From the NCBI GenBank assembly GCA_934597345.1, contig CAKTRJ010000031.1:1-29893 (forward strand): a stretch of DNA of 29,893 nucleotides, given 5' to 3'. Shown piece by piece: positions 4,792 to 28,593 of the stretch. The position numbers were made by a program, and so were the translations under genes. The stretch comes from an uncultured Oscillospiraceae bacterium. GTDB taxonomy: Bacteria > Bacillota > Clostridia > Oscillospirales > Oscillospiraceae. Every line of letters starts with the position of its first letter. The stretch's first letter is position 1. The notes under the pieces are model-generated. The model searched no databases. It saw nothing but the letters and a program-made list of their open reading frames with translations, and was not told where the DNA came from.

Positions 4792-5052
4792 AATATTGAA
4801 CAGCGATGATGGGAAGCAGTAGGCGGTCAACGGATGCCGAGAGAGGGCGCGGTCGGTGTAAGCGCCCGTGAAGTCCCGCCAAAGTCGTCCCTGAGCTTTC
4901 GGCTGAACGTGAAGTAGGCCGCAACGGCTGCCCTCCGTTAGCGGGGCGCGGTGTGACAGCATCGCATGAGTGCGGGAAATATCCCGAATACAGGTGGTAC
5001 CACGGACAATCGTTCGCCCTGTTTTGCTATGGCAAAACGGAGCGATTTTTTT
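4792..5052 (+). promoter_or_regulatory. T-box riboswitch, valine (GUC) specifier, controlling valS
   Basis: The diagnostic T-box AGGTGGTACCACGG is at 4992-5005, followed by a terminator (AATCG...CTGTTTTG / CAAAACGG...CGATT, then a long T-run, 5008-5052). Stem I is readable: kink-turn GATGA (4805-4809) opposite TGAG (4892-4895), GGGA/TCCC, the AGTA S-turn strand (4818-4821), and GGCGG/CCGCC. The specifier loop on the 3' side reads AAA-GTC-G, giving the valine codon GUC at 4884-4886 followed by the usual purine. Uncharged tRNA-Val would stabilise the antiterminator and switch on valS. Type and specifier agree with the downstream gene. Confidence 0.95.
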
Positions 5053-5090
5053 GTTGCCCTTTTTGCCAAATACGGAAAGGAGAACCCCCT

Positions 5091-7724
5091 ATGCATAAGG
5101 AATTACCGAAAGTGTACGATCCCCGCGAGGTGGAGTCCAGCATCTATCAGATGTGGATGGACAACGACTGCTTCCGCGCCGATCCCAACCCCGACAAGAA
5201 GCCTTTCTCCATCGTTATGCCGCCCCCCAACGTCACCGGCCAGCTCCACATGGGCCACGCCATGGACTGCACGCTGCAGGACATCCTGATCCGCTACAAG
5301 CGCATGCAGGGCTACGAAGCCCTGTGGCTGCCCGGCAGCGACCACGCCGGTATCGCCACCCAGATCAAGGTGGAGGAGGAGCTGCGGAAGAACGAGGGCC
5401 TCACCCGCCACGACCTGGGCCGCGAGAAGTTCCTGGAGCGCGTCTGGGCCTGGAAGGAGAAGTACGGCAGCCGCATCGTGGAGCAGCAGAAGAAGATGGG
5501 CGCCTCCTGCGACTGGAGCCGCGACCGCTTCACCATGGACGAGGGCTGCTCCCGCGCCGTCCGCGAGACCTTCTGTGAGCTGTATGAAAAGGGCCTGATC
5601 TACAAGGGCAGCCGCATCATCAACTGGTGCCCTCACTGCCTGACCGCCCTGTCCGACGCTGAGGTGGAATACACCGAGAAGCCCGGCCATCTGTGGTACG
5701 TCCGCTATCCTCTGGCCGACGGCACCGGCGATATCATCATCGCCACCACCCGTCCCGAGACCATGATGGGCGATACCGGTGTGGCCGTGAACCCGGAGGA
5801 CGAGAAGTTCAAGCACCTGATCGGCAAGAAGTGCATCCTGCCCATCATGAACCGCGAGATTCCCATCGTGGGCGACGAATACTGCGAGATCGGCTTCGGC
5901 ACCGGCGCGGTGAAAATGACCCCCGCCCACGACCCCAACGACTTCGAGGTGGGCCTGCGCCACAATCTGGAGGTCATCCGCTGTATCGCTGACGACGGCA
6001 CCATCAATGAGAACGGCGGCCGCTATCAGGGCATGGACCGCTACGAGTGCCGCAAGGCCATCGTGGCCGACCTGGAGGCCGAGGGCTATCTGGTCAAGAC
6101 TGAGCCTTACAGCCACAACGTGGGTACCTGCTACCGCTGCCACAACGACGTGGAGCCGCTGATCAGCGCCCAGTGGTTCGTGAAGATGGCGCCCCTGGCC
6201 AAGGAGGCCATCCGCGTGGTGGAGGACGGCACCGTCAAGTTCGTGCCGGAGCGCTTCACCAAGACCTATATCAACTGGATGGAGAACGTCCATGACTGGT
6301 GCATCTCCCGCCAGCTGTGGTGGGGCCACCAGATCCCCGCCTGGTACTGCAACGAGTGCGGCCACATCAACGTCAGCCGTCAGGATCCCACCAAGTGCGA
6401 GAAGTGCGGCTGCACCCATCTGACCCGGGAGGAGGACGTGCTGGACACCTGGTTCAGCTCCGCCCTGTGGCCCTTCTCCACCCTGGGCTGGCCCGACCTG
6501 AACGCTCCCGACCTGAACTACTGGTATCCCACCTCCGTGCTGGTCACCGGCTATGATATCATCTTCTTCTGGGTGGCCCGCATGATCTTCTCCGGCATGG
6601 AGCAGATGAAGAAGGAGCCCTTCAAGACCGTGCTGATCCACGGCCTGGTGCGTGATGACAAGGGGCGCAAGATGTCCAAGTCTCTGGGCAACGGCATCGA
6701 CCCGCTGGAGATGGCGGAGAAGTACGGCGCCGACGCCCTGCGCTTCAACCTGATCACCGGCAACAGCCCCGGCAACGACATGCGCTTCTTCGTGGAGAAG
6801 TGCGAGGCCATGCGCAACTTCGCCAACAAGATCTGGAACGCCAGCCGCTTCGTCATGATGAATCTCACCATCGACAAGGTGCAGCTTCCCGAGAAGCTGG
6901 AGCTGGAGGACAAGTGGGTGCTCAGCAAGCTGAATACCCTGATCCGCGAGGTCACCGAGAATATGGATGCCTTTGAGCTGGGCGTGGCCTCCGCCAAGAT
7001 CTACGACTTCATCTGGGACACCTACTGCGACTGGTATATCGAGCTGACCAAGACCCGCCTGAACGGCGAGGACGCCGAGGCCAAGCTGGCCGCCGAGAAC
7101 GTGCTGTGCTATGTGCTGCTGCGTATCCTGGAGCTGCTGCATCCCTTCATGCCGTTCCTGACGGAGGAGATCTGGCAGGCCCTGCCTCATGAGGGCGACT
7201 TCCTGATCCGCGCCCCGTGGCCCACCTATCAGGAGAGCCTGCACTTCCCCCAGGCGGAGTCCGACATGGAGTGCGTCAAGGACGCCATCACCGCCGTCCG
7301 CGCCCGCCGCAGCGAGATGAACGTGCCGCCCTCCAAGAAGGCCCAGATGATCCTGGTGACCAAGCGGCCCGAGACCTACGCCGTGGGCAAGCACTTCATC
7401 ACCCGCATGGCCTACGCCAGCGAGGTCACCGTCACCGATCAGGTGCCCGCTGACCTGAAGGGCATGGTCACTGTGGTGACCCACGACGCCAACATCTACC
7501 TGCCGCTGGCCGAGCTGGTGGACATCGCCGCCGAGCTGGAGCGCATTGCCAAGGAGAAGACCAAGGCTGAGGACAACCTGAAGCGCATCGAGGCCAAGCT
7601 GGCCAATGAGTCCTTCACCTCCCGCGCCCCGGAGAACGTGGTGAACGCCGAGCGGGAAAAGGCGGAGAAGGCCCGCGCCCTTATCGCCAAGCTGGAGGAG
7701 TCCGCCGCCGCCATGAAGCTGTAA
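5091..7724 (+). CDS. valS: Valine--tRNA ligase
   Basis: An 877-residue class I aminoacyl-tRNA synthetase that charges tRNA-Val. Visible landmarks are the HIGH-type motif in PPPNVTGQLHMGH (residues 44-56), the editing domain with ATTRPETMMGDTGVAVNP, a cysteine-rich insertion (CNECGH...CEKCGC) that may bind zinc, KMSKS at about 527-531, the anticodon-binding domain, and a C-terminal coiled-coil arm (about 805-875, rich in Lys, Glu and Ala) typical of ValRS. The frame is open further upstream, but the real start is the ATG at 5091 behind GGAAAGGAG. Earlier codons lie inside the T-box terminator. Codon use is strongly biased to C and G third positions, as in highly expressed genes. Confidence 0.98.
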   Translation: MHKELPKVYDPREVESSIYQMWMDNDCFRADPNPDKKPFSIVMPPPNVTGQLHMGHAMDCTLQDILIRYKRMQGYEALWLPGSDHAGIATQIKVEEELRKNEGLTRHDLGREKFLERVWAWKEKYGSRIVEQQKKMGASCDWSRDRFTMDEGCSRAVRETFCELYEKGLIYKGSRIINWCPHCLTALSDAEVEYTEKPGHLWYVRYPLADGTGDIIIATTRPETMMGDTGVAVNPEDEKFKHLIGKKCILPIMNREIPIVGDEYCEIGFGTGAVKMTPAHDPNDFEVGLRHNLEVIRCIADDGTINENGGRYQGMDRYECRKAIVADLEAEGYLVKTEPYSHNVGTCYRCHNDVEPLISAQWFVKMAPLAKEAIRVVEDGTVKFVPERFTKTYINWMENVHDWCISRQLWWGHQIPAWYCNECGHINVSRQDPTKCEKCGCTHLTREEDVLDTWFSSALWPFSTLGWPDLNAPDLNYWYPTSVLVTGYDIIFFWVARMIFSGMEQMKKEPFKTVLIHGLVRDDKGRKMSKSLGNGIDPLEMAEKYGADALRFNLITGNSPGNDMRFFVEKCEAMRNFANKIWNASRFVMMNLTIDKVQLPEKLELEDKWVLSKLNTLIREVTENMDAFELGVASAKIYDFIWDTYCDWYIELTKTRLNGEDAEAKLAAENVLCYVLLRILELLHPFMPFLTEEIWQALPHEGDFLIRAPWPTYQESLHFPQAESDMECVKDAITAVRARRSEMNVPPSKKAQMILVTKRPETYAVGKHFITRMAYASEVTVTDQVPADLKGMVTVVTHDANIYLPLAELVDIAAELERIAKEKTKAEDNLKRIEAKLANESFTSRAPENVVNAEREKAEKARALIAKLEESAAAMKL

Positions 7725-15061: not shown

Positions 15062-15856
15062 TCAGGAAAGCAAGGCCCGGTCGCTGGAAAACTCGTCGCC
15101 ACTGACCTTGGCGAATTGCGCCAGCAGGTCGGTCACGGTGAGTTTTTTCTTCTCCTCGCCGGAGATATCCAAAATCACCCGGCCCTCGTGCAGCATAACG
15201 AGACGGCTGCCGTACTGGATGGCGTCCCGCATATTGTGGGTGATCATTAGCGTGGTCAGCTTTTCCCTGGTGACGATCCGGTCTGTCAGCTCCATGACCT
15301 TGGCGGCGGTCTTGGGGTCCAGGGCGGCGGTGTGCTCGTCCAGAAGCAGCAGCTTCGGACTTTTCAGCGTGGCCATCAGCAGCGTCAGCGCCTGACGCTG
15401 GCCGCCGGACAGGGTGCTGACCTCGGAGGAGAGGCGGGTCTCAAGTCCCAGCCCCAGATCGCGCAGCATGGTGCGGTAGGTCTCCCGCTCCGCCTTGGTG
15501 ATGCCCCAGCGAAGGCCCCGCTTCTGGCCGCGCCGTGCCGCCAGCGCCAGATTTTCCTCGATATGCATGGAGGGAGCCGTGCCCATCATGGGATCCTGAA
15601 ACACGCGGCCGATGTAGGCGGCCCGCTTGTATTCCGGCAGATCGGTCACATCAACGCCGTCCAGATATACCTCGCCGGAGTCCACGCTCAGCGTACCGGC
15701 GGTGGCGTTCAGCATAGTGGATTTACCCGCGCCGTTGCCGCCGATGACGGTGACGAACTCACCATCTTTCAGCGTCAGGCTCAGTCCGTCCAGCGCGGTT
15801 TTCGCGTTGACGGTGCCGGGATTGAAGGTCTTATGCAGGTCTTTCAGTTCAAGCAT
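15062..15856 (-). CDS. ABC transporter ATP-binding protein
   Basis: This 264-residue ATPase has Walker A GGNGAGKST (about 39-47), the Q-loop in RVFQDPMMG, the signature LSGGQRQA, and Walker B LLLLDEHTAALD, followed by the switch histidine in MITHNMRDA. It belongs to the COG1101 group that pairs with ABC_sub_bind lipoproteins and BPD_transp_2 permeases. Its start overlaps the permease stop by eight bases. The Phe/Tyr-rich leader upstream of the operon suggests uptake of aromatic amino acids, as in the TrpXYZ-type systems, but this is inferred from regulation rather than from the protein. Confidence 0.94.
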   Translation of the reverse strand: MLELKDLHKTFNPGTVNAKTALDGLSLTLKDGEFVTVIGGNGAGKSTMLNATAGTLSVDSGEVYLDGVDVTDLPEYKRAAYIGRVFQDPMMGTAPSMHIEENLALAARRGQKRGLRWGITKAERETYRTMLRDLGLGLETRLSSEVSTLSGGQRQALTLLMATLKSPKLLLLDEHTAALDPKTAAKVMELTDRIVTREKLTTLMITHNMRDAIQYGSRLVMLHEGRVILDISGEEKKKLTVTDLLAQFAKVSGDEFSSDRALLS

Positions 15857-16790
15857 GCTGCTCCACTCCTTCCTTTGCGGTGCGCTGGGGCTTGCGGCGG
15901 GCCTTTTTCAGATTCAGATAGGACAGCGTCAGGAACAGCGCCACGATCAGCGCCGTGATCAGCTTCAGGTCGTTGGTGTTCAGACCGATCTGAAGGACAA
16001 TCTGAAGGACAATGTAGTATACGATGGCACCCACAGAGACGGCCAGCAGCTTGGCGCCGATGTTGTGGAACACCTTGCCGAACATCACCTCACCGATGAT
16101 GACGGCAGCCAGACCGATGACGATAGCGCCGCGGCCCATGTTGATGTCACTGGAGCCCTGATACTGGGCCAGCAGCGCGCCGGACAGGGCCACCAGACTG
16201 TTGGAGAGCATCAGGCCCAGCACGATGTTGGCGTTGGTATTGATGCCCTGGGCCCGGGCCATGTGGGGATTCGCGCCGGTAGCGCGGACGGAGTTTCCCT
16301 TTTCCGTGCCGAAGAACCAGTACAGAGCGGCCACGATCACGGCGGTCAGCACGACCAGCAGCGGCAGCGGGTTGTCCAGCGACAGCGCGCGGACGTACCG
16401 CTGGCTCAGCAGCAGGTCATACTTATCCACGCTGACGGCCTGATTGCCCTTGCCGCCCATGATCCGCAGATTGATGGAGTACAGCGCCAGCTGGGTCAGG
16501 ATACCGGCCAGAATGGCGGGGATGCCGCACCGGGTGTGAAAGAGTCCGGTGGCCAGACCGGCCAGCATGCCGGATGCCAGTGCGCACAGCATGGCAAGCC
16601 ACGGGTCCACGCCCGCCCGGATCAGCATCACGCACACCGCGCCGCCGGTGGCCAGCGAGCCGTCCACCGTCAGGTCGGCCACGTCCAGAATACGGAAGGT
16701 GATGTAAACGCCGATGGCCATAATGCCCCAGGCCAGTCCCTGGGCGACCGCGCCGGGCAGCGCGTTCATCAGCGAGGAAAGGAAACTCAT
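15849..16790 (-). CDS. ABC transporter permease (BPD_transp_2, COG4120)
   Basis: A 313-residue membrane protein with about nine hydrophobic segments, of the branched-chain/ribose permease superfamily. It carries the pattern MAIGVYITFRILDVADLTVDGSL near the N-terminus and NSVRATGANPHMARAQGI, the cytoplasmic coupling region. AAAGGAG precedes the ATG. A 12-base tandem duplication (15988-16011) encodes VLQIVLQI in a late membrane helix. It is the second gene of the importer operon, 68 bases behind the lipoprotein gene, with a stem-loop in the gap. Confidence 0.93.
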   Translation of the reverse strand: MSFLSSLMNALPGAVAQGLAWGIMAIGVYITFRILDVADLTVDGSLATGGAVCVMLIRAGVDPWLAMLCALASGMLAGLATGLFHTRCGIPAILAGILTQLALYSINLRIMGGKGNQAVSVDKYDLLLSQRYVRALSLDNPLPLLVVLTAVIVAALYWFFGTEKGNSVRATGANPHMARAQGINTNANIVLGLMLSNSLVALSGALLAQYQGSSDINMGRGAIVIGLAAVIIGEVMFGKVFHNIGAKLLAVSVGAIVYYIVLQIVLQIGLNTNDLKLITALIVALFLTLSYLNLKKARRKPQRTAKEGVEQHA

Positions 16791-16818
16791 AGGTCATGCT
16801 CCTTTGATTTCAGAGTAG

Positions 16819-16843
16819 GGGAGGATGCGGCATGCATCCTCCC
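16819..16843 (-). other. Intercistronic stem-loop between lipoprotein and permease genes
   Basis: A 10-bp stem (GGGAGGATGC / GCATCCTCCC, loop of five) without a T-run lies between the two genes. Such hairpins commonly protect the 3' end of the more abundant lipoprotein message and lower expression of the permease. That role is inferred. Confidence 0.55.
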
Positions 16844-16858
16844 GTGGGAAGGCGGGGA

Positions 16859-17854
16859 TCAGTCCTCGATGGCGGTGTAGCCGTCCAGCGGGGTGATGCC
16901 CAGGGCTTCGCAGATGGTGGGGTTGTACTTGGGGGTCGCGGTGGTGTATTCGATGGGCATGGCGGAGATATCCGCCTCGCCGGTCAGGATCCTGGCGGCC
17001 ATCTGACCGGTGGTCTTGCCCAGATCGTAGTAGCTGATGGACAGGGTCGCCACGCCGCAGCCGGAGCAGATGCCCTCCTCGCCGCAGATGGCGGGCACAC
17101 CGGCGGGGATCAGCACGTTGGCGATGGCCTCGGTATTGGCGGCGGCGGTGTTGTCGGTGGGGATGTAGATCACGTCGGCGTAGTCGCAGGCGGCCTGGGT
17201 GACGGAAGCCACATCGTTGGTGTCGGTGAAGGCATATTCCGCAGTCTCGATACCGGCGTCAGCCAGGTGCTTGGCCACCTCCTCGATCTGATAGCGGGAG
17301 TTGGGTTCGGCGGAGCAGAACAGCAGAGCTACCTTATTGGCCTGAGGGAACCACTCAGTGATCATAGCGGCCTGCTTCTCCAGATCGGCCAGATCGGAAG
17401 TGCCGGAGATGTTGCCGCCCACGGTGCCGTTGAAGTCGTCCATGTCCAGCGCCACGCCGTAAGCGGTGATGGAGGTGCCCAGAACGGGGATATCGCTGGT
17501 GGCGGAGGCGGCGGCCGTCAGGGCGGCGGTGGCGTTGGCCATGATCAGGTCCACGCCGTCGGACACGAAGCCGTTGACGATGGTGGAGCAGTTGACGGAA
17601 TCGCCGGAGGCGTTCTTCTCAACGATCTTCACCTGGCCGGGCAGGGCCTCGTTCAGCGCGTCGATAAAGCCCTGGGTGGCGGCGTCCAGCGCGTCGTGCT
17701 GCACCAGCTGGCAGATGCCGACGGTGTACTTGGCATCGTCGCTGCCGGTGTTTTCTCCGGCGGGCTCGCCGCCCTAGCTGCCGCAGCCGGTCAGACACAG
17801 GCTCAGCGCCAGCGCAAGGGCGAGAATGAGAGATGTGATACGTTTGGCTTTCAT
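16859..17854 (-). CDS. ABC transporter substrate-binding lipoprotein, interrupted by an in-frame TAG
   Basis: The gene opens at 17854 behind AGGAGG with a lipoprotein signal peptide (MKAKRITSLILALALALS, then lipobox LTGC with Cys24). Codon 27 is TAG (17774-17776). The same frame then continues for 304 codons with a complete ABC_sub_bind (PF04392) protein: GICQLVQHDALDAATQGF, then ANATAALTAAASATSDIPVLG and ADVIYIPTDNTAA. Without suppression only a 26-residue peptide is made; restart at the GTG of 17704 would give a protein without export signal and without a ribosome binding site. Other genes here end normally at TAG (spoIIAA, the Xre gene), so the code is standard. It is probably a recent nonsense mutation or an assembly error. 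Confidence 0.85.
17774..17776 (-). other. In-frame amber codon three codons after the lipobox Cys
   Basis: Read on the minus strand the codons are GGC AGC TAG GGC GGC GAG, in the flexible linker after the lipid-bearing cysteine. A single change from CAG (Gln), AAG or GAG would restore the gene, and residues on both sides fit an ordinary linker. Confidence 0.9.
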
Positions 17855-17884
17855 GGTATGTTCCTCCTGAAAATGTGTTTTTGG

Positions 17885-17930
17885 TAAAAAAGACCCGCTG
17901 CACGGACTTGTGGTCCATACAGCGGGTTTG
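17885..17930 (-). terminator. Attenuator terminator in the ABC operon leader
   Basis: On the minus strand a 15-bp stem (17893-17907 with 17913-17927, two G-T pairs) is followed by TCTTTTTT. It lies between the leader peptide and the lipoprotein start, so it would stop most transcripts before the operon. An alternative hairpin just upstream (GTTTG, AACGC and GAGCG arms, 17926-17974) overlaps the base of its stem. Confidence 0.88.
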
Positions 17931-18623: not shown

Positions 18624-18652
18624 TTGCGAAACGGAGGCGGATACGGTATAAT
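18624..18652 (+). promoter_or_regulatory. Promoter of the hprK leader RNA
   Basis: TTGCGA (18624-18629), 17 bases, TATAAT (18647-18652), giving a transcript start near 18659, about 13 bases before the closing helix of the structured leader. Confidence 0.85.
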
Positions 18653-18658
18653 ATAATC

Positions 18659-18951
18659 TGTATTGTTATTAATACCATCGATTGACAAGGGCAGACACGG
18701 TTTTGACGGGCAGAAATGCGCCCATACTGTGTCAAGCCCCTTGACAATACGGTAAGTATTCTCTGCGGGCCTTTTCTTGTCTGGACACATTTCTGTTCCG
18801 GCAAAACTGCAAGGCACCTGACAGCGATGGATTTTCGAGTGATTTTTGGCTTTTGAGACGCAGGTGGGCTGGCGCCCACCAAGGCGAAAAGGGCAAAAAG
18901 TGCCGGAAAGACACGCTGTCAGGCGTGTTTGTCCTTGTTAATCGATGGTAT
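18659..18951 (+). ncRNA. Large structured RNA, 5' leader of hprK, class not recognised
   Basis: Bases 18672-18699 pair with 18924-18951 in an uninterrupted 28-bp helix (three G-U pairs, no mismatch). Inside are a hairpin with TTGAC/GTCAA and GGGC/GCCC (18703-18735), one with GCCC/GGGC and AATAC/GTATT (18736-18770), one with GGTGGGC/GCCCACC (18863-18880), and two crossing helices: TTCCGGCA with TGCCGGAA (18796-18803, 18901-18908) and CCTGACAGCG with CGCTGTCAGG (18817-18826, 18914-18923). The crossing pair predicts a pseudoknot. The last strand of the closing helix ends six bases before the hprK ribosome binding site. It has no match to the conserved cores I know for RNase P, tmRNA, SRP or T-box. 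It could be a riboswitch-like leader or an independent RNA. Confidence 0.7.
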
Positions 18952-18972
18952 AGAGTGTGAGGAGCAACGAGC

Positions 18973-19935
18973 ATGGAAAAAGTGAGACGTACCCCGGCCA
19001 GCGTGAAGAAGCTGACGGAATACTTTCATATGGAGATCCTCTGCAAGGGCCGCGACTATGACACCTGCGTCATCACCGTGTCGGACGTGTTCCGTCCGTC
19101 CCTGCAGCTGGTGGGGTTTTACGATTATTTCGACACCAAGCGCCTGCTGATCCTGGGGAAAAGCGAGATGCGCTTTCTCTCCCGCATGACCGCCGAGGAG
19201 CGGACGAGGGTCTTTAACCGCCTGATGAGCTACAGCTTCCCGGCCATGATCATCTCCCGCAATCTGGAGGTGTTCGACGAGCTGCTGGAGATGGCCCAGA
19301 AGCATGGCCGCACCCTGCTGCGCACCGGCAGTGATACGGTGGACGCCACCAGTCATATCATTGACTATCTCAATAACGCCCTGGCGCCCCAGATCACCCG
19401 CCACGGCGTGCTGATGAACATTTACGGTCAGGGTGTGCTGATCCTGGGCGACAGCGGCATCGGCAAGAGCGAGACCGCCATTGAGCTTCTCAAGCGCGGC
19501 CATCAGCTGGTGGCCGACGACGCGGTGGAGATCAAGCGCATTTCCGACACACTCCATGGCACGGCTCCGGAGCTGATCCGTCACTATATCGAGATCCGCG
19601 GCGTGGGCGTCATCGACGTGAAGCAGCTGTTCGGTATGGGCGCGGTACAGTTCGAGACGGAGATCGATCTGGTGATCCAGCTGGAGCAGTGGCAGGACGG
19701 CAAGTTCTATGACCGTCTGGGCCTGGGCGAGGAGCAGTATACGCTGCTGGACGTGTCGCTGCCCATCGTGACCATCCCGGTGCGGCCCGGCCGGAATCTG
19801 GCCGGTATCGTGGAGATCGCCACCATGAAGAACCGCCAGACCAAATACGGCTATAACGCGGGCCGCGACTTCGTGACCCAGTTCGACAGCAAGCTGGACG
19901 CTATGAGCCGACAGAACGGAAGCGACCTGTTATGA
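18973..19935 (+). CDS. hprK: HPr kinase/phosphorylase
   Basis: A 320-residue enzyme that phosphorylates and dephosphorylates Ser46 of HPr (and Crh where present), coupling sugar status to catabolite control. The P-loop is GDSGIGKS (159-166), HQLVADDAVEI follows with Asp182-183, and the family signature IEIRGVGVIDV is at 207-217. The N-terminal domain (1-130) is typical. GTGAGGAG precedes the ATG at 18973. It heads a long operon and has a roughly 310-base structured leader, so its expression is likely controlled after transcription starts. Its stop overlaps the next start (ATGA). The HPr gene is not in this window. Confidence 0.97.
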   Translation: MEKVRRTPASVKKLTEYFHMEILCKGRDYDTCVITVSDVFRPSLQLVGFYDYFDTKRLLILGKSEMRFLSRMTAEERTRVFNRLMSYSFPAMIISRNLEVFDELLEMAQKHGRTLLRTGSDTVDATSHIIDYLNNALAPQITRHGVLMNIYGQGVLILGDSGIGKSETAIELLKRGHQLVADDAVEIKRISDTLHGTAPELIRHYIEIRGVGVIDVKQLFGMGAVQFETEIDLVIQLEQWQDGKFYDRLGLGEEQYTLLDVSLPIVTIPVRPGRNLAGIVEIATMKNRQTKYGYNAGRDFVTQFDSKLDAMSRQNGSDLL

Positions 19936-20897
19936 AATACATCGGCATCGATATCGGCGGCACCAATCTGAAGGCCGGCATGGTGGACGGAGAGGGCCAG
20001 CTGCTGGCCACCCGGAAAATGAAGGTGGCGGGTATCGCCGACCCGGCGGCGCTGGCATGGACCATCCACGCGCTGGTGCTGGACCTGTGCCGGGACAATG
20101 GCTGCGATATAGGCGAAATATTCTCCGTGGGCGTAGGCTGCCCCGGCGCGGTGGAGATTCGGGGCGGCTCCATCCTGTATACCTGCAATCTTCCCCTGCG
20201 GAACGTGCCGCTGCGGCGGCTGTTCCACCAGCTCAGCGACCTGCCCCTTTACATAGAAAATGACGCCAACTGCGCGGCACTGGCGGAATACTATGTAGGC
20301 GGCGGCCGGGGCAGCAAGCGCTTCATCACCGTCACACTGGGCACCGGCGTGGGCGGCGGCATCATCCATAACGGCAAGATCTTCCACGGCTCCAACGGCA
20401 TGGCGGGCGAGGTGGGCCACATGTCCATCGAGATGGACGGCGAGGAGTGCCCCTGCGGCCGCCGCGGCTGCTGGGAGCGGTACGCCTCCGCCAGCGCCCT
20501 GAAGCGCCAGACCACCAGGGCATGGCAGGAGAACCCCGACAGCATCATGGCCCAGGTCATTGCCGAGAATGACGGCCATGTGTCCGGCCAGTCGGCCTTC
20601 ATCGCCGCCCGCCGGGGCTGTCAGGTGGGCCAGCGGGTCTGCGACCAGTACATCCGCTATCTGGCCGCCGGTATCGTGAACATCATCAATATCTTCCAGC
20701 CGGATACGCTGGCCATCGGCGGCGGCGTCAGCAACGAGTCGGACGAACAGCTGCTGCTGCCCCTGCGCCGTCAGGTGGCGGCCCACAGTCTGCCCTGCAA
20801 CTATGACAAAATGACGAAGATCGTCAAGGCGCAGCTGGGCAACGACGCCGGTGTCATCGGCGCGGCGCTGCTGGGGAAGAATAAGCGGATCATCTGA
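19932..20897 (+). CDS. ROK family sugar kinase (glucokinase-like)
   Basis: A 321-residue ROK protein with an N-terminal phosphate-binding motif GIDIGGTNLKAG, the sugar-site segment ENDANCAALAE (109-119), TLGTGVGGGII (135-145), the GEVGHM motif (Glu160, His163) and the zinc motif CPCGRRGCWE (Cys173, 175 and 180). There is no N-terminal DNA-binding domain, so it is a kinase rather than a repressor. Glucokinase is the likeliest activity; N-acetylmannosamine or fructose kinase cannot be excluded. It overlaps hprK by four bases, linking sugar phosphorylation and catabolite control in one transcript. Confidence 0.92.
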   Translation: MKYIGIDIGGTNLKAGMVDGEGQLLATRKMKVAGIADPAALAWTIHALVLDLCRDNGCDIGEIFSVGVGCPGAVEIRGGSILYTCNLPLRNVPLRRLFHQLSDLPLYIENDANCAALAEYYVGGGRGSKRFITVTLGTGVGGGIIHNGKIFHGSNGMAGEVGHMSIEMDGEECPCGRRGCWERYASASALKRQTTRAWQENPDSIMAQVIAENDGHVSGQSAFIAARRGCQVGQRVCDQYIRYLAAGIVNIINIFQPDTLAIGGGVSNESDEQLLLPLRRQVAAHSLPCNYDKMTKIVKAQLGNDAGVIGAALLGKNKRII

Positions 20898-20914
20898 AAG
20901 CAAGGAGGCGCTGT

Positions 20915-21829
20915 ATGCGTTGGTATGAAGAACTGGACGAAAAGCTGCGGGACTATCTGCCGGACCTTCCCGTGTCGGCGGAGGAGCCGCTGTCGAAATA
21001 CACCTCCTTCCGTATCGGCGGCCCGGCCCGGCGGATGGCCTTTCCCCGGAACGCCGAGCAGCTGGTGCTGCTGCTGAATTTCGCCGGTGAATGCGGTGCG
21101 CGGCCCTATGTGCTGGGCAATGGCACCAATGTGCTGTTTCCCGACGAGGGCGTGGATCGGCTGATCATCAACACCCGCGACATGGCGGACATCCGGCTGC
21201 TGGAGGGCGGCCGCGTCAGGGCCGGGGCGGGCGCGTCACTGGCCCGCACGGCGGTTTTCGCCTGCGGACAGGGACTGGCGGGGCTGGAATTTGCCCACGG
21301 CATCCCCGGCAGCGTGGGCGGCGGCGTATGTATGAACGCGGGCGCTTACGGCGGCGAGCTGGCCCAGGTCATTGAAAGCGTCACCGTGCTGTTTCCCGAC
21401 GAGGGCGTGAAAACCGTTCCCTGCGCCGGTATGGCTTTCGGCTACCGCCGCAGCCTGCTGACGGAGCATCCCGACGCAGTGGTGCTGTCCGCCATATTCG
21501 CCCTGCATCCGGACGACAGCGCCGCCATCCGCGGCCGCATGGACGACCTGATGGCCCGGCGCAGGGCCTCCCAGCCGCTGGAGTATCCCAGCGCGGGCAG
21601 CACCTTCAAGCGGCCGGAGGGCCACTTCGCGGGCCGCCTGATCGAGGAGGCGGGCTGCAAGGGTCTGACCGTCGGCGGTGCGCAGGTGTCGGAAAAGCAC
21701 GCGGGCTTTGTGATCAACGCGGGCGGCGCCGCCTGCGCCGACGTGCTGGCGCTGATGGCGGAGGTGCAGCGCCGGGTGAAGGAAAACTCCGGCGTGACGC
21801 TGGAGCCGGAAGTGCGCATCGTCAAATAA
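20915..21829 (+). CDS. murB: UDP-N-acetylenolpyruvoylglucosamine reductase
   Basis: A 304-residue FAD enzyme making UDP-N-acetylmuramic acid for peptidoglycan. FAD-binding segments are YTSFRIGGPA, VLGNGTNVLFPDEG and GIPGSVGGGVCMNAGAYGGE. The catalytic Ser is in SAGSTFKRP, and a glutamate near the C-terminus (LEPEVRIV) completes the site. The length and lack of an extra loop fit type II MurB of Gram-positives. AAGGAGG precedes the ATG. It sits in its usual place before rapZ-yvcK-whiA in Clostridia. Confidence 0.97.
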   Translation: MRWYEELDEKLRDYLPDLPVSAEEPLSKYTSFRIGGPARRMAFPRNAEQLVLLLNFAGECGARPYVLGNGTNVLFPDEGVDRLIINTRDMADIRLLEGGRVRAGAGASLARTAVFACGQGLAGLEFAHGIPGSVGGGVCMNAGAYGGELAQVIESVTVLFPDEGVKTVPCAGMAFGYRRSLLTEHPDAVVLSAIFALHPDDSAAIRGRMDDLMARRRASQPLEYPSAGSTFKRPEGHFAGRLIEEAGCKGLTVGGAQVSEKHAGFVINAGGAACADVLALMAEVQRRVKENSGVTLEPEVRIVK

Positions 21830-21844
21830 AACAGGGGAGAACCT

Positions 21845-22702
21845 ATGGAAATTCTGATCATTACCGGTATGAGCGGCAGCGGCAAAAGCCGGGCCGCCTC
21901 CATTCTGGAGGATATCGGCTACTATATCGTGGATAACCTTCCGGCGGAGATGATGGTGAAATTCGCTGACTTCTGCGCCGCGTCACGGGGCCATTATGAC
22001 CGGGTGGCGCTGGTGTACGACGTCCGGGCGGGCGAGCCCTTTGACCTGCTGATCGCCACGCTGGAGCGGCTGAAGCGGACGGATGTGGACTGCCGCCTGC
22101 TGTTTCTGGACGCGGACACCGCCTCCATCATCAACCGGTATAAGGAGACCCGCCGCGCCCATCCGCTGTCGGCGGAGGGCCGGAGCATCGAGCAGGCGGT
22201 GACGCTGGAACGGCAGATGCTTCAGCCGGTGCGGGATCACGCCGACTATGTGCTGGATACGTCCTCCTTCTCGGTGGGGAAGCTCCGCAGTGAGCTTCTG
22301 AATCTTTTCGGCCGGGAGAAGGACCGGCAGGGCCTGCATGTGGACGTGATGAGCTTCGGCTTCAAGCACGGCCTGCCTATGGAGTCCGACTTAGTGTTCG
22401 ACGTGCGGTTTCTCCCGAACCCCTACTACATACCGGAGCTGAAGCACGGCACCGGCCTGGACGCGGCGGTGCGGGACTATGTGTTCTCTTTCCCCCGGAC
22501 AGGAGAGTTCATGGAGCGGCTGGAAAAGCTGCTGCTGTATCTGCTGCCCCTTTATAATGAAGAGGGCAAGACGGTGCTGGTGATCGCCGTGGGCTGCACC
22601 GGCGGCCACCACCGCAGTGTGGCGGTGGCTCACCAGCTGGCGCAGGATCTGACGGCGGCGGGCTTTGCCGTGACGGAGAGCCACCGGGATATCTCCCGCT
22701 GA
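21845..22702 (+). CDS. rapZ: RapZ/YvcJ family nucleotide-binding protein
   Basis: A 285-residue P-loop protein: ITGMSGSGKSRAA (Walker A, 8-15), DNLPAEMM, VYDVRAGEPFDLL, and the C-terminal domain with FGFKHGLPMESDLVFDVRFLPNPYY and GCTGGHHRSVAVA. In enteric bacteria RapZ controls glmS mRNA through small RNAs. In Firmicutes (YvcJ) it hydrolyses GTP and binds nucleotides with a less clear role. It lies in the conserved rapZ-yvcK-whiA block. Confidence 0.96.
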   Translation: MEILIITGMSGSGKSRAASILEDIGYYIVDNLPAEMMVKFADFCAASRGHYDRVALVYDVRAGEPFDLLIATLERLKRTDVDCRLLFLDADTASIINRYKETRRAHPLSAEGRSIEQAVTLERQMLQPVRDHADYVLDTSSFSVGKLRSELLNLFGREKDRQGLHVDVMSFGFKHGLPMESDLVFDVRFLPNPYYIPELKHGTGLDAAVRDYVFSFPRTGEFMERLEKLLLYLLPLYNEEGKTVLVIAVGCTGGHHRSVAVAHQLAQDLTAAGFAVTESHRDISR

Positions 22703-22726
22703 TCATGGGAAGGAAGGGACGGTCTC

Positions 22727-23740
22727 ATGTCTCATTACTTATATCATATCCCGCCGGAGAAGGGCCCCAAGGTGGTGGGCATCGGCGGCGGCACGGGCCT
22801 GAGCACGCTGCTGCGTGGCCTGAAGCTCTATACCCGCAACATCACCGCCATCGTCACGGTGGCGGATGACGGCGGCAGCACCGGCATGCTGCGGCAGGAT
22901 CTGGGTATGGCCGCCCCCGGCGATATCCGCAACTGCCTGCAATCGCTGGCCAACTGCGAGCCGCTGATGGGCCAGCTGATGGCCTACCGGTTCGCGGACG
23001 GCTCGCTGGCGGGCCAGAGCCTTGGCAATCTGCTGCTGGCGGCGCTGAACGACATCATGCCCAGCTTCGACAAGGCGGTGGCCGGTCTCAGCAAGGTGCT
23101 GGCCATCACGGGCCGGGTGCTGCCGGTGACCAACGAGAACGTGCAGCTGGAGGCCACCTTTGAAAACGGGGCCACCGTGCTGGGCGAATCCCATATTTTC
23201 TACTGCAAGAAGGAGCAGGACTGCCGCATCCGCTCCGTCCGGCTGCTGCCGGAGCATCCCAGGGCGCTGGACGCGGCGGTGGAGGCCATTCTGGACGCGG
23301 ACATGATCGTGTTGGCGCCGGGCAGCCTCTATACCAGCATCATCCCCAACCTGCTGGTGGATGGTATTGCCGACGCCATCCGGGACAGTAAAGCGGTAAA
23401 GCTTTATGTCTGCAACGTCATGACCCAGGAGGGGGAGACGGAGGGCTATACCGTCTCCGACCATATTCAGGCCCTGTTCAGCCACAGCTATCCCCAGCTG
23501 TTCCGGCTGTGCCTGACCAATTCCATGCCCATCCCGGAGAGTATCGCCCGGCGGTACGCACAGGAGGGCGCGGAGCCGATTTATCACGATACGGAGAAGT
23601 GCCGCGCGCTGGGCGTGGAGCTGATCGAGCGGCCTGTGGCCAGTCTGGAAAACGGGCTGGTGCGGCACAATCCCGGCCATCTGGCCCATGAGCTGATGAC
23701 CATTTACGAGGAATATGTATCCTCGAAGAATCCCACATGA
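22727..23740 (+). CDS. yvcK: YvcK family protein, cell-wall/carbon regulator (CofD-like fold)
   Basis: A 337-residue protein that starts KVVGIGGGTGLSTLLRGL and continues with TVADDGGSTGMLR and GDIRNCL, the YvcK/CofD UDP-sugar-binding fold. In Bacillus it is needed for growth on gluconeogenic carbon and for normal cell shape, and it binds UDP-GlcNAc-type nucleotides. The short N-terminal extension (SHYLYHIPPEKGP) is normal. GGAAGG lies upstream. The order murB-rapZ-yvcK-whiA agrees with a role near cell-wall precursor supply. Confidence 0.95.
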   Translation: MSHYLYHIPPEKGPKVVGIGGGTGLSTLLRGLKLYTRNITAIVTVADDGGSTGMLRQDLGMAAPGDIRNCLQSLANCEPLMGQLMAYRFADGSLAGQSLGNLLLAALNDIMPSFDKAVAGLSKVLAITGRVLPVTNENVQLEATFENGATVLGESHIFYCKKEQDCRIRSVRLLPEHPRALDAAVEAILDADMIVLAPGSLYTSIIPNLLVDGIADAIRDSKAVKLYVCNVMTQEGETEGYTVSDHIQALFSHSYPQLFRLCLTNSMPIPESIARRYAQEGAEPIYHDTEKCRALGVELIERPVASLENGLVRHNPGHLAHELMTIYEEYVSSKNPT

Positions 23741-23753
23741 AGGAGGAGGCCCC

Positions 23754-24662
23754 ATGCAGTCGTTTTCCTACAAGGCCAAGGCGGAGCTGTGCCGCACGGC
23801 GGTGCAGCGGCTGTGCTGCGCCCGTGCCGAGTGCTACGGCGTGCTGCTGTACTGCAACACCTTCACCATGCAGGAGGTGCGAATCATCACGGAGAATCCG
23901 GAGTTTGCCGCGCGGCTGCCCCGCCTGTTCCACCGGGCCTTCAACGTGAAGTTTGACCGCCTGCCCACGGAGGAGACCCCAGGCAGTAAGCTGATCTTCC
24001 AGATCACCGATCCGGACAAGCTGCGCCGCGTCGTGGACACGCTGGGCTACGATCCTCGTCAGGCGCTGGTGCTGCATGTGAATTTCGCCATGCTGGAGGA
24101 GGACTGCTGCCGCGTGTCCTTCCTGCGGGGCGCGTTTCTGGCGGGCGGCAGCGTCACTGACCCGGAGAAGCGCTATCATCTGGAGCTGTCCACCTCCCAT
24201 GTGCAGGCCAGCCGCGAGGTGTCGGCCCTTCTGCAGGAGATGGGCTTCCTGCCCCGCAGCGTCATGCGCAGCGGCAGCGCCGTCATCTACTTCAAGCAGT
24301 CCGAGCATATTGAGGATCTGCTGACCACCTTGGGCGCGCCGGTGGCCGCCACCGAGATCATGACCGCCAAAGTGGATAAGGAGATCCGCAACGGGGCCAA
24401 CCGGGCCATGAACTGCGACATGGCCAACGTGAACAAGACGCTGGACGCGGTGGCCGCCCAGCAGGAGGCCATCGAAAAGCTGGAAAAGGCCGGACAGCTG
24501 GAAAGGCTGCCGGAGAAGATACAGGAGACGGCGCGGCTGCGGATGCAGAATCCGGAGCTGCCGCTGGCCCAATTGGCGGCGCTGTTCGATCCGCCCATCA
24601 GCAAATCCTGTTTGAATCACCGGATACGAAAGATCATGGAGGAGGCAAGAAAACTGTCATGA
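23754..24662 (+). CDS. whiA: DNA-binding protein WhiA
   Basis: A 302-residue protein with an N-terminal LAGLIDADG-like domain (SFLRGAFLAGGSVTDPEKRYHLEL, about 120-145) and a C-terminal helix-turn-helix (LPLAQLAALFDPPISKSCLNHRIRKI). In actinomycetes WhiA regulates sporulation and division genes; in Bacillus it influences division and chromosome segregation. The ATG at 23754 follows AAGGAGGAGG and starts MQSFSYKAK as in homologues; upstream in-frame codons are inside yvcK. Its stop overlaps the next gene. Confidence 0.96.
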   Translation: MQSFSYKAKAELCRTAVQRLCCARAECYGVLLYCNTFTMQEVRIITENPEFAARLPRLFHRAFNVKFDRLPTEETPGSKLIFQITDPDKLRRVVDTLGYDPRQALVLHVNFAMLEEDCCRVSFLRGAFLAGGSVTDPEKRYHLELSTSHVQASREVSALLQEMGFLPRSVMRSGSAVIYFKQSEHIEDLLTTLGAPVAATEIMTAKVDKEIRNGANRAMNCDMANVNKTLDAVAAQQEAIEKLEKAGQLERLPEKIQETARLRMQNPELPLAQLAALFDPPISKSCLNHRIRKIMEEARKLS

Positions 24663-25108
24663 CAAAGATGGAAAGATGCCGGAAGGCGAACGAGTATCAC
24701 GAGAAGAAGTTCAGCTGCGGACAGAGCGTGCTGGTGGCTTTTACGGACATTACGGGTCTGACCGAGGAGCAGAGCATCGCGCTGTCCAGCGGCTTCGGCA
24801 ACGGTATGCGCTGCGGCAGCATGTGCGGCGTGATCAGCGCGGCCGTGGTGGTGCTTGGCATGCGCTATCCCGCCACACTGGAGGACGGCGCGGAGGGCAA
24901 GAAGCGTTCCACCCGTCTGGTGCAGGAATTCCAGCGGCGCTTTGCCGAGCAGTTCAAAAACCTGAATTGCCGTGACCTGCTGGCGGACAAGGAACTGGTG
25001 GGCACGCCAGCCGCGCAGGAGCTGGGCGTGACCCAGCACTGCCGCCTGCTGGTGGTGTCCGGCACGGAGCTGCTCAGCGACATGCTGGACGAGCTGGAGG
25101 CACAGTAA
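24659..25108 (+). CDS. C_GCAxxG_C_C family protein
   Basis: A 149-residue cysteine-rich protein: CGQSVLVAFTDITGL, then GFGNGMRCGSMCGVISAAV, and a further Cys near FKNLNCRDLL. The spacing matches the C_GCAxxG_C_C family (PF09719), presumed redox or metal-binding, with no proven function. It overlaps whiA by four bases and dnaE by one, so all three are coupled. In Bacillus and many Clostridia an HPr-type gene stands behind whiA; here this protein takes that place. Confidence 0.88.
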   Translation: MTKMERCRKANEYHEKKFSCGQSVLVAFTDITGLTEEQSIALSSGFGNGMRCGSMCGVISAAVVVLGMRYPATLEDGAEGKKRSTRLVQEFQRRFAEQFKNLNCRDLLADKELVGTPAAQELGVTQHCRLLVVSGTELLSDMLDELEAQ

Positions 25109-28100
25109 TGGCGTTTGCCCACCTTCACGTCCATACGGAATACAGCCTCCTGGACGGCGCCTGCCGCATCCGTGACCTGCCAAAGCTGGTCAAAGAGATG
25201 GGGCAGACGGCTTGTGCCATCACGGATCACGGCGCCATGTACGGGGCCATCGACTTCTACCGGGCCTGCAAGGCGGAGGGCATCCATCCGGTCATCGGCT
25301 GCGAGGTGTATGTGGCCCGCCGCACCCGCTTCGACAAGCAGCACGAGTTTGACGCCGAGTCCCGGCATATGGTGCTGCTGTGCAAAAACGAGACAGGCTA
25401 CCGTAACCTGTCCTATATGGTGTCCCAGGCGTATATCGAGGGCTTCTATATCAAGCCCCGCATCGACCTTGACCTGCTGCGCGAGCACAGCGAGGGCCTG
25501 ATCGGGCTCAGTGCCTGCCTGGCCGGTGAGATCCCCCGCCGCATCATCAACGGCGACTATGAGGGAGCCAAGGCCTACGCGCTGGAGCTGCGCTCCATTC
25601 TGGGAGAGGACAACTTCTATCTGGAGCTGCAGGATCACGGTATTGCCGACCAGACCACGGTGAACCGCGCCCTGCTGCGGATGCACAATGAGACGGGCAT
25701 CCCGCTGGTGTGTACCAACGACGCTCACTATCTCCGGAAGGAGGACGCCGAGAGCCACGATGTGCTGCTGTGCATCCAGACCGGCAAGACCGTGGACGAC
25801 GAGAACCGCATGCGGTACGAGCCCCGGAACTTCTACCTCCGCTCCACGGAGGAGATGGAGGCGCTGTTCTCCGGCTATCCCGACGCGGTGGAGAATACCC
25901 AGCGCATCGCAGACCGCTGCCAGCTGGAATTCACCTTCGGCAAGTACCACCTGCCGGAATTCAAGCTGCCGCCGGGCTACGATTCACCCACCTATCTTCG
26001 CAAGCTGTGCGACGAGGGCTTTGTCCGCTGCTACGGCGACGAAAAGCCGGAGTACCGCAAGCAGCTGGAATATGAGCTGGCCATGATCGAGAAGATGGGC
26101 TTTACCGACTATTTCCTCATCGTGTCCGACTTCGTCAACTATGCCCGGAAGGCGGGCATACCCGTGGGCCCCGGCCGCGGCAGCGCCGCCGGCTCCATGG
26201 TGGCCTACTGTCTGCACATCACCGACATCGACCCCATGCAGTATCAGCTGTATTTCGAGCGTTTCCTGAACCCGGAGCGCGTGTCCATGCCGGATATCGA
26301 CATGGACTTCGGCGATACCCGCCGGGGCGAGGTGGTGGACTACGTCCGCCGCAAGTACGGCGATGACCATGTGGCCCAGATCGTCACCTTCGGCACCATG
26401 GCTGCCCGGGGCGCCATCCGGGATGTGGGCCGCGCCCTGAACATGACCTATGCCGAGGTGGACGCCGTGGCCAAGCTGGTGCCTTCCGGTCCCGGCGCGC
26501 TGCATATCACGCTGGACGATTCCCTGCGGCTCAGCAAGCAGCTGTCCGACCTCTACGAGGCCGACGAGCGGGTGAAGCGGCTCATCGACATGGCCAAGGC
26601 GCTGGAGGGCATGCCCCGCCACGCCTCCACCCATGCCGCCGGTGTGGTGATCACCCGCTTGCCGGTGTATGAATATGTGCCGCTGGCCCGGAATGACGAG
26701 TCCATCGTCTGCCAGTACAACATGATCACGCTGGAGGAGCTGGGCCTGCTGAAAATGGATTTCCTGGGCCTGCGGAACCTGACGGTGCTGGACGACGCGG
26801 TGAAGATGGTACACCGCCACACCCCGGACTTCGATCTGGAGAAGATCCCCATGGACGATCCGGAGGTGTTCCGGATGCTGACGGAGGGCCGCACCTCCGG
26901 CGTGTTCCAGATGGAATCCACCGGCATGACCGGCGTCTGCCTGGGTCTGAAGCCCCAGTCCATCGAGGATATCACCGCCATCATAGCCCTGTACCGCCCC
27001 GGCCCCATGGAATCCATCCCCCGGTTCATCGCCTGCAAGCACGATCCCAAGCTGGTGACCTATAAGCATCCGTCGCTGAAGCCCATCCTGTCGGGCACCT
27101 ACGGCTGTATCGTCTATCAGGAGCAGGTCATCAAGATATTCCAGGAGCTGGCGGGCTACTCGCTGGGTCAGGCGGACATGGTGCGCCGCGCCATGTCCAA
27201 GAAGAAGGCCAAGGACGTGGAACGGGAGCGGGAGGCGTTCCTCCACGGCGACGCCGCCCGTAACATCAAGGGCTGCGTGGCCAACGGCATTCCGGAGAAA
27301 ACGGCCCAGGCCATCTATGACGAGATCTATGACTTTGCCAACTACGCCTTCAACAAGGCCCACGCCGTCAGCTACGCGGTGGTGGCCTATCAGACGGCGT
27401 ACTTCAAGTGTCACTATACCCGCGAATATATGGCGGCGCTGCTGACCTCGGTGCTGGACAACTCCGACAAGGTGGCGGAGTATATCGCCGAGTGCCGGGA
27501 GTGCGGCATCGCCCTGCTGCCGCCGGACGTGAACCGCTCCTACGACGGCTTCACCGTGGAGGAGGGCGGCATCCGCTTCGGCCTTGTGGCCATCAAGAAC
27601 ATCGGCCGGGGTTTCATTCAGGCACTGGTGCGCGAGCGGGACAAGAGCGGCCCCTTCGCCTCCTTCCAGGACTTCTGCGAGCGGATGTTCGACTGCGGCG
27701 ATATGAACAAGCGTGCGGTGGAGAACCTGATCCGCGCGGGCGCCTTCGATACCATGGGGGCCTACCGTTCCCAGCTGATCCAGGTGTACGAGAAGGTGCT
27801 GGATGCCATCGCCAACAGCCGCAAAGTGAATGTGGAGGGCCAGCTGGACATGTTCGGCACGGGCGGCGGAAGCAATACCCAGGCCGCGTCCATCCACCTG
27901 CCCGACCTGCCGGAGTATACCGCCACCGAGCGGATGTTCATGGAGAAGGAGACCACGGGCCTGTACCTCAGCGGCCACCCCATGAACGACTACCGGGGCG
28001 CGGCCCGTGCCGCCGGTGCGGTGCCCATCCACGATATTCTGGAGGACTTCGCCGCCGAGGGCGGCCCCACCCGCTATGCCGACGGGCAGAACGTCACCAT

Positions 28101-28593
28101 CGCGGGCATCGTCACCTCCAACCGTACCCGCACCACCAAGAACAACACCCTCATGGCCTATGTGGTGGTGGAGGATGAGGTGTCCTCCATGGAGTTGCTG
28201 TGCTTCAGCCGCACCATTGAGCAGTGCGGCAGCTATATGGCCGTCAATACCCCGGTGGTGGTGAAGGGCCGTCTGTCGGTGCGGGACGAAAAGCCGCCCC
28301 AGATCATGTGCGACACCATCTATCCGCTGGATACCAAGGCCGTCCCCGCCGCGCCGGAGCCGCCCGGGGAGAAGAAAGCATGCACCATCTTCCTGCGCTT
28401 CCCCAGCATGGACAGCGTAGCCTTCCGCCATATCCGCCTGGTCATGACCATGTTCGAGGGGGAGACCCCCGTGAAGATCCGTCTGGCCGACACGGGAAAG
28501 CTGCTGGCGGGCAAATGCCTGAACCACCCGGCCCTGCTGGCAGAGTGCCGCCAGTGGCTGGGGAAGGAGAATGTGGTGGTGCGGGAGCGTTGA
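25108..28593 (+). CDS. dnaE: DNA polymerase III subunit alpha (DnaE)
   Basis: A 1161-residue C-family polymerase. The PHP domain opens with HLHVHTEYSLLDGACRI (5-21). The polymerase domain contains GRGSAAGSMVAYCL and the catalytic aspartates in PDIDMDFGD (396, 398 and 400). HASTHAAGVVIT and YQEQVIKI are typical thumb and fingers segments. A helix-hairpin-helix region and an OB fold (NVTIAGIVTSNRTRTTKNN, about 990-1010) form the C-terminal part. No proofreading exonuclease domain is present, so this is DnaE and not PolC. The ATG shares a base with the stop of the upstream gene, with GGAGG before it. Confidence 0.98.
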   Translation: MAFAHLHVHTEYSLLDGACRIRDLPKLVKEMGQTACAITDHGAMYGAIDFYRACKAEGIHPVIGCEVYVARRTRFDKQHEFDAESRHMVLLCKNETGYRNLSYMVSQAYIEGFYIKPRIDLDLLREHSEGLIGLSACLAGEIPRRIINGDYEGAKAYALELRSILGEDNFYLELQDHGIADQTTVNRALLRMHNETGIPLVCTNDAHYLRKEDAESHDVLLCIQTGKTVDDENRMRYEPRNFYLRSTEEMEALFSGYPDAVENTQRIADRCQLEFTFGKYHLPEFKLPPGYDSPTYLRKLCDEGFVRCYGDEKPEYRKQLEYELAMIEKMGFTDYFLIVSDFVNYARKAGIPVGPGRGSAAGSMVAYCLHITDIDPMQYQLYFERFLNPERVSMPDIDMDFGDTRRGEVVDYVRRKYGDDHVAQIVTFGTMAARGAIRDVGRALNMTYAEVDAVAKLVPSGPGALHITLDDSLRLSKQLSDLYEADERVKRLIDMAKALEGMPRHASTHAAGVVITRLPVYEYVPLARNDESIVCQYNMITLEELGLLKMDFLGLRNLTVLDDAVKMVHRHTPDFDLEKIPMDDPEVFRMLTEGRTSGVFQMESTGMTGVCLGLKPQSIEDITAIIALYRPGPMESIPRFIACKHDPKLVTYKHPSLKPILSGTYGCIVYQEQVIKIFQELAGYSLGQADMVRRAMSKKKAKDVEREREAFLHGDAARNIKGCVANGIPEKTAQAIYDEIYDFANYAFNKAHAVSYAVVAYQTAYFKCHYTREYMAALLTSVLDNSDKVAEYIAECRECGIALLPPDVNRSYDGFTVEEGGIRFGLVAIKNIGRGFIQALVRERDKSGPFASFQDFCERMFDCGDMNKRAVENLIRAGAFDTMGAYRSQLIQVYEKVLDAIANSRKVNVEGQLDMFGTGGGSNTQAASIHLPDLPEYTATERMFMEKETTGLYLSGHPMNDYRGAARAAGAVPIHDILEDFAAEGGPTRYADGQNVTIAGIVTSNRTRTTKNNTLMAYVVVEDEVSSMELLCFSRTIEQCGSYMAVNTPVVVKGRLSVRDEKPPQIMCDTIYPLDTKAVPAAPEPPGEKKACTIFLRFPSMDSVAFRHIRLVMTMFEGETPVKIRLADTGKLLAGKCLNHPALLAECRQWLGKENVVVRER

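Follow-up and report, generated by a model that had tools for sequence, protein, structure and literature searches.

The large structure upstream of hprK in an uncultured Oscillospiraceae bacterium is very probably a MITE-like mobile DNA element

The hprK gene of an uncultured Oscillospiraceae bacterium is preceded by a large, self-complementary region, which raises the question of whether this region is a regulatory RNA or something else. The window analysed here is the whole 29,893-nucleotide stretch of contig CAKTRJ010000031.1 (assembly GCA_934597345.1). A sequence-only reading of it had proposed a new riboswitch-like element acting on hprK, or a free-standing RNA sharing the hprK promoter. 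The structure is real and has no counterpart in Rfam, but it is not an hprK-specific leader RNA. Instead, it is very probably a mobile DNA element of about 277 bp, MITE-like, non-coding and non-autonomous, which entered at a TA lying between the promoter and the ribosome binding site (RBS) of hprK. What had been a tempting riboswitch candidate belongs to a repeat family that is widespread in Oscillospiraceae and in other Clostridia.

Most of what had been described for the fold of the window copy was borne out. The 28-nt arms at 18672-18699 and 18924-18951, 224 nt apart, form 25 Watson-Crick pairs out of 28 (89%), the other three being G-U. The region 18640-18980 folds at -151.2 kcal/mol compared with a mean of -98.5 kcal/mol for shuffled sequences (z -9.3), a value that none of 100 shuffles equals, and 18673-18950 folded as DNA gives a z of -9.7. 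Two helices had been predicted to form a pseudoknot, one of 8 bp (18796-18803/18901-18908) and one of 10 bp (18817-18826/18914-18923). Both are perfect complements that cross, but the minimum-energy fold and the alignment-based fold are fully nested. The pseudoknot was rejected, as the 8-bp helix is paired in just 43.0% of cells in the aligned copies; the 10-bp helix, paired in 89.4% of cells, is the nested base of the right arm. The absence of any known RNA class was confirmed: neither the window copy nor 12 other element loci have an Rfam match at gathering score, which rules out a known RNA family. The sole matches in a permissive search of the region, to DicF (E 1.1) and to asX2 (E 9.5), score far under the respective cut-offs.

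The hprK loci most closely related to that of the window (L001 and L002) encode HprK proteins with 95% identity. Both align with the window across the rpmB-hprK intergenic region and the promoter, and then jump directly to the RBS. As both relatives keep promoter and RBS without the element, the element is an insertion between the two. The sigma-70-like promoter reported ahead of the closing helix is conserved in these relatives, and it is this conservation that supports it, since chance alone would provide 0.6 matches of this kind in the stretch. A survey of hprK upstream regions in relatives, proposed along with the riboswitch idea, gave no support for it. Among 80 hprK loci, of which one (L043) covers only about 90 nt upstream of its match, the element is present in no leader according to blastn of the leader and to R1, a covariance model built from eight copies including the window. 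The blastn matches precede the element, and the best one inside it spans 30 nt (L037, E 0.002). R1 has two matches at E<=1e-3, both outside the leader. One is a relative of about 160 bp in another clostridial MAG, roughly 0.5 kb upstream of hprK (L037:4357-4516), and the other is a 44-bp match about 0.45 kb upstream (L003). Likewise, in 32 genus-level genomes, 28 of them with an HprK match, none of the element matches listed lies at hprK. No conserved association with a gene class was found, hprK being the class tested, nor was a conserved orientation to neighbouring genes. At the window locus itself, the element should fold into a large hairpin within the hprK transcript, with a possible effect on hprK translation or RNase III processing. 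The positions of the features are collected in Table 1.

Table 1. Parts of the inserted element and neighbouring hprK features, numbered along the window.
Feature	Position	Strand	Basis or remark
hprK promoter TTGCGA-17-TATAAT, outside the element	18624..18652	+	Conserved in empty-site relatives
Whole inserted element with both TAs, 278 bp	18673..18950	+	Absent in L001/L002
Left TA, probable target-site duplication	18673..18674	.	Mirrored TAs in 54/76 copies; L100 empty site
Left terminal inverted repeat, 27 nt, 5' strand of closing helix	18673..18699	+	
Left arm, long imperfect hairpin with conserved tip	18700..18807	+	
Small central hairpin at junction, family consensus TGCTTCGCA	18808..18816	+	3 pairs, 99.1% of cells paired
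Right arm, long imperfect hairpin	18817..18923	+	Base is the 10-bp helix of the sequence-only reading
Right terminal inverted repeat, 27 nt	18924..18950	+	
Right TA, probable target-site duplication	18949..18950	.	Mirrored TAs in 54/76 copies; L100 empty site
hprK, HPr kinase/phosphatase, downstream of the insertion	18973..19935	+	TIGR00679, 351.4 bits

The element is dispersed through many genomes. A DNA search of the 32 genus-level genomes gave matches in six, with three full copies in G016, judged to be V. fastidiosa MM35 from identical match coordinates in NZ_AP023416, and four in G031. Of 300 family-level genomes, R1 matched 76 at E<=1e-3 and 47 at E<=1e-15; of 341 class-level genomes, it matched 21 at the stricter threshold. 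The match of R1 to the window (E 3.1e-93) is not independent, as the window contributed to the model. Because no more than six candidates per genome were scored at family level and five at class level, the copy numbers are minimum values. Chance hairpins may account for weak matches, and there are copies that match on both strands. In G104, a degenerate terminal-repeat pattern occurs 28 times forward and 20 times in reverse, compared with 0 in the control, although a few of these may be tRNA 3' ends. Several repeats lie at contig ends, as is seen with collapsed repeats. The lengths of the full copies differ by non-multiples of three and no shared reading frame is expected. In being short, non-coding and dispersed, the element agrees with bacterial MITEs, as it does in its terminal inverted repeats. 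In viral contigs, the pattern scan for the terminal repeat yielded no stretch; a core word was found in three, with no terminal repeat nearby, and was judged to be chance. A 92%-identical copy with an insert of about 55 bp in the right-arm tip (L095:2420-2751) is present on the unverified human-faecal 'phage' record MT837146, whose flanks match contig ends of genome G003, so this record may be bacterial. No description of the family was found in open-licence papers on MITEs or repeats of Oscillospiraceae, Faecalibacterium or Clostridia, or on structured RNAs.

All 76 selected full-length copies (273-281 bp) share one architecture, in which a 27-bp terminal inverted repeat closes a junction of two arms of about 108 nt and a small hairpin. 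This set comprises the window, six genus-level loci, 30 family-level loci, each the best copy of a different genome, and 39 stretches chosen by hand from the family-level matches, a fortieth (L245, 259 nt) being omitted; length variants were kept outside the alignment. Removal of copies at least 90% identical reduced the set to 49. Of these, 38 were aligned by structure, the 11 more divergent or both-strand copies being omitted, which favours a clean alignment. The covariation that the sequence-only reading had proposed to test proved to be strong. In the 38 copies, 88.6% of cells pair (68.8% when shuffled). Changes on both sides occur in 81 of 104 pairs, compared with a mean of 62.8 in shuffles and 42-51 in slid versions, and covariation scores 0.509, compared with 0.155 in shuffles and 0.09-0.12 in slid versions. 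None of 500 shuffles reaches any of the observed values. The consensus structure was drawn from eight copies including the window, which favours it over the slid versions. The terminal repeats are paired in 93.9% of cells, whereas the weakest helix, located in the left arm, reaches 53.0%, and most copies do not form certain inner pairs of the right arm. Positions at the junction and at the arm tips are invariant across copies. Size variants also exist: a 332-bp form whose right-arm tip carries an insertion, and forms of 222, about 160, 128 and 44-52 bp, the smallest containing little beyond the two terminal repeats.

The question then becomes on which level the pairing is maintained. Selection on RNA tolerates G-U more than A-C and leaves one strand folding better than the other. 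Both signs are evident in RNase P RNA from carrier genomes, which served as the control: G-U and A-C cells number 77 and 21 (bootstrap of the ratio 1.86-9.72), and 19 of 21 sequences are more stable on the sense strand (p 1e-4). The control comprises 21 of 26 matches, four longer copies and one fragment being dropped, and is less diverged (mean identity 0.73) than the element (0.57-0.62). For the element, the corresponding counts are 186/146 in 76 copies, 116/104 in 49 and 95/86 in 39, giving ratios of 1.1-1.3 with a bootstrap range of 0.73-1.76 over the three sets. The plus strand is more stable in 26 of 49 copies (p 0.77). Hence, wobble-tolerant covariation and strand-specific stability of the kind found in RNase P RNA are lacking family-wide; the arms are complementary with little preference for wobble pairs and no overall preference for a strand, with the exceptions given below. 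Orientation to genes whose 5' end faces the element is even, with 32 cases in sense and 32 in antisense, and tandem gaps divide 15:15. This count covers 59 of the 76 copies, leaving out 13 with short flanks and four inside a predicted ORF, and takes gene context from ORFs of at least 90 aa, so that short genes such as rpmB are missed. The low G-U preference, the absence of an overall strand bias and the even orientation together point to maintenance at the DNA level, which is the better reading for the family as a whole. The family thus carries a warning for covariation-based RNA discovery: despite 81 of 104 pairs with double-sided changes, the wobble, strand and orientation tests favour DNA.

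The core of the element is steadier than its ends, with a mean pairwise identity of 0.61 in the core and 0.44 in the ends. Terminal repeats of very different sequence occur, such as TACCATCGRTTGACAAGGG..., (T)AAGGCNRNGGGAGTCGAACCC..., TAGCCTGATGGCACCAATTAG... and others, and at least two kinds are found within each of the genomes G326, G038, G089, G235 and G210. The contrast is most apparent in the pairs L181/L217 and L183/L223, which share a core identity of about 0.76 and an end identity of 0.21-0.27. Recent swapping of ends inside one genome was considered but not demonstrated: within a genome, cores with different ends are 0.56-0.76 identical, about as alike as cores from different genomes. 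The family is best explained as a set of MITE-like elements in which the core is conserved and the terminal repeats differ widely. Against this explanation, the core appears more conserved than plain ends-only mobility would need. By eye, the (T)AAGGCNRNGGGAGTCGAACCC... ends resemble a tRNA T-arm, and in one subtype (L184:1501-1779, L186:1501-1778, L188:1501-1778 and others) the 3' terminal repeat is like a T-arm plus acceptor end. A tRNA at such ends was rejected, since ARAGORN placed no tRNA overlapping the element in 27 loci. One copy (L187:1501-1776) is located inside a tRNA array, after tRNA-His (1393-1467) and 2 nt before tRNA-Gln (1779-1853).

Insertion, dispersal, terminal repeats and the short forms of scarcely more than two ends suggest that the element would be moved by a transposase acting in trans on TA-flanked inverted repeats. 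A TA stands at mirrored positions of both ends in 54 of 76 copies; 22 of the 76 are without it, and one of the 76 (L233) is without a left flank. Comparison of copy L100 with G031 reveals an empty site 2 bp longer than both filled-site flanks joined, which fits one TA. The site of copy L109 is empty but diverged in G016, with nine extra bases containing a TA. At hprK, the sites of L001 and L002 are 2 bp shorter than a strict TA duplication would require, which, like the copies without mirrored TAs, counts against the proposal. Two obvious partners were considered and rejected. Y1 transposases, whose co-occurrence is characteristic of REP/RAYT, are present in 31 of 76 carriers and 74 of 224 other genomes (p 0.27, assuming one common set of 300 genomes for both counts). 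DDE_3, the domain of IS630/Tc1-mariner-type transposases, is present in one of eight carrier genomes. No partner repeat was detected 0.3-4 kb away in 20 single-repeat regions, seven of which end at a contig edge, and no autonomous element sharing the terminal repeats was found in the few genomes, many of them drafts, and the several repeat types searched. The palindrome itself would be kept by DNA-level forces, either through recognition of an extruded hairpin or cruciform or through homogenisation of its arms by template switching.

The latter force can also be taken further. Replication template switching would homogenise the arms of a quasi-palindrome that is not selected at all, and the covariation would then be mutational. 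This reading deals with the cause of the lasting complementarity and can hold alongside the MITE-like explanation; it is possible, if somewhat unlikely. Covariation with few wobble cells is in line with it, and PMC8604942 describes how template switching homogenises inverted-repeat arms. The higher conservation of the core relative to the ends and the invariant junction and arm-tip positions argue against it, as part of the element at least seems constrained. A more specific proposal is tentative and has slightly less weight. The conserved unit may be, instead of the transposon ends, a four-way-junction DNA palindrome that some enzyme recognises on either strand as an extruded cruciform or a single-stranded hairpin, with the terminal repeats as exchangeable modules that were repeatedly replaced while helix length and TA ends were kept. 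Shape rather than end sequence would then be the conserved signal. Should the combination of a conserved core and exchangeable ends be borne out, it would make shape recognition in transposition testable.

A third reading keeps the dispersal but places selection on the RNA fold itself, possibly limited to the Vescimonas subclade or to the terminal helix. Of 70 unpaired core columns, 26 have a majority of at least 80%. In addition, 10 of 12 Vescimonas-type copies, among them that of the window, are more stable on the plus strand, although these copies are related rather than independent. The terminal helix has a mild G-U excess under equal scoring (102/74 in 76 copies, 65/43 in 49), rising to 165/76 when the scoring rewards G-U over A-C. 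The eight copies of alignment A2 give 53/14 over all pairs of an RNAalifold structure, which admits G-U only, and 18/13 when the count is restricted to pairs whose most frequent form is Watson-Crick. Within some subclade, the element may act as RNA. As an account of the element, a mobile structured RNA is doubtful in view of the family-wide wobble ratio, far from that of RNase P RNA, and the even strand and orientation counts. A riboswitch-like leader or free-standing RNA controlling hprK is very improbable, for although covariation is strong, the element lies downstream of the hprK promoter and the window copy is more stable on the plus strand (-141 vs -125 kcal/mol), the element is absent from the hprK leaders of relatives and sits at other loci in either orientation without an RNase P RNA-like wobble or strand signature.

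Hairpins recognised as DNA also occur in IS200/IS605 and REP/RAYT elements. These differ from the MITE-like element described here in that it has TA-flanked inverted repeats and no Y1 association. Closer parallels are provided by Correia/NEMIS, ERIC and RUP repeats, which PMC2229807 describes as having TA ends, inverted repeats, target duplication and lengths of about 100-200 bp. They share dispersal, terminal inverted repeats and TA termini with the element, and give stable long stem-loop transcripts; Correia repeats also come in two sizes differing by an internal stretch (PMC2229807). The element differs from all three in its length of about 277 bp, in its two long arms and central hairpin on a 27-bp closing helix, and in terminal sequences that differ strongly among core-sharing copies. 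RUP is linked to IS630-Spn1 (PMC2229807), whereas no partner IS was found for the element. CIR repeats of Caulobacter and Brucella likewise have two long arms in the predicted structure, but these are joined by a linker, show no 5'-3' end pairing and carry GANTC (PMC2229807), while the element is closed by its 27-bp terminal repeat. The bcr1 repeat of the Bacillus cereus group is also dispersed and mobile-like with a conserved fold, and bcr mobility is tied to a TTTAT motif (PMC2267715, PMC6542083), whereas the element has TA and inverted repeats.

Elsewhere, the window contains an ordinary T-box leader at 4797-5024 (RF00230, 112.5 bits), preceding a class I aminoacyl-tRNA synthetase with a valyl-type C-terminal arm (ORF 4953-7724). 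Two overlapping ORFs at 15627-17887 (417 and 351 aa) match neither NCBIfam nor Pfam at E<=1e-3 and are possibly shadow ORFs of opposite-strand genes. HprK has one relative in viral contigs, with 46% identity. Downstream of the insertion, a gene run at 18973-28593 comprises hprK, a ROK-family kinase, murB, rapZ, yvcK, whiA, a C_GCAxxG_C_C protein and DNA polymerase III alpha.
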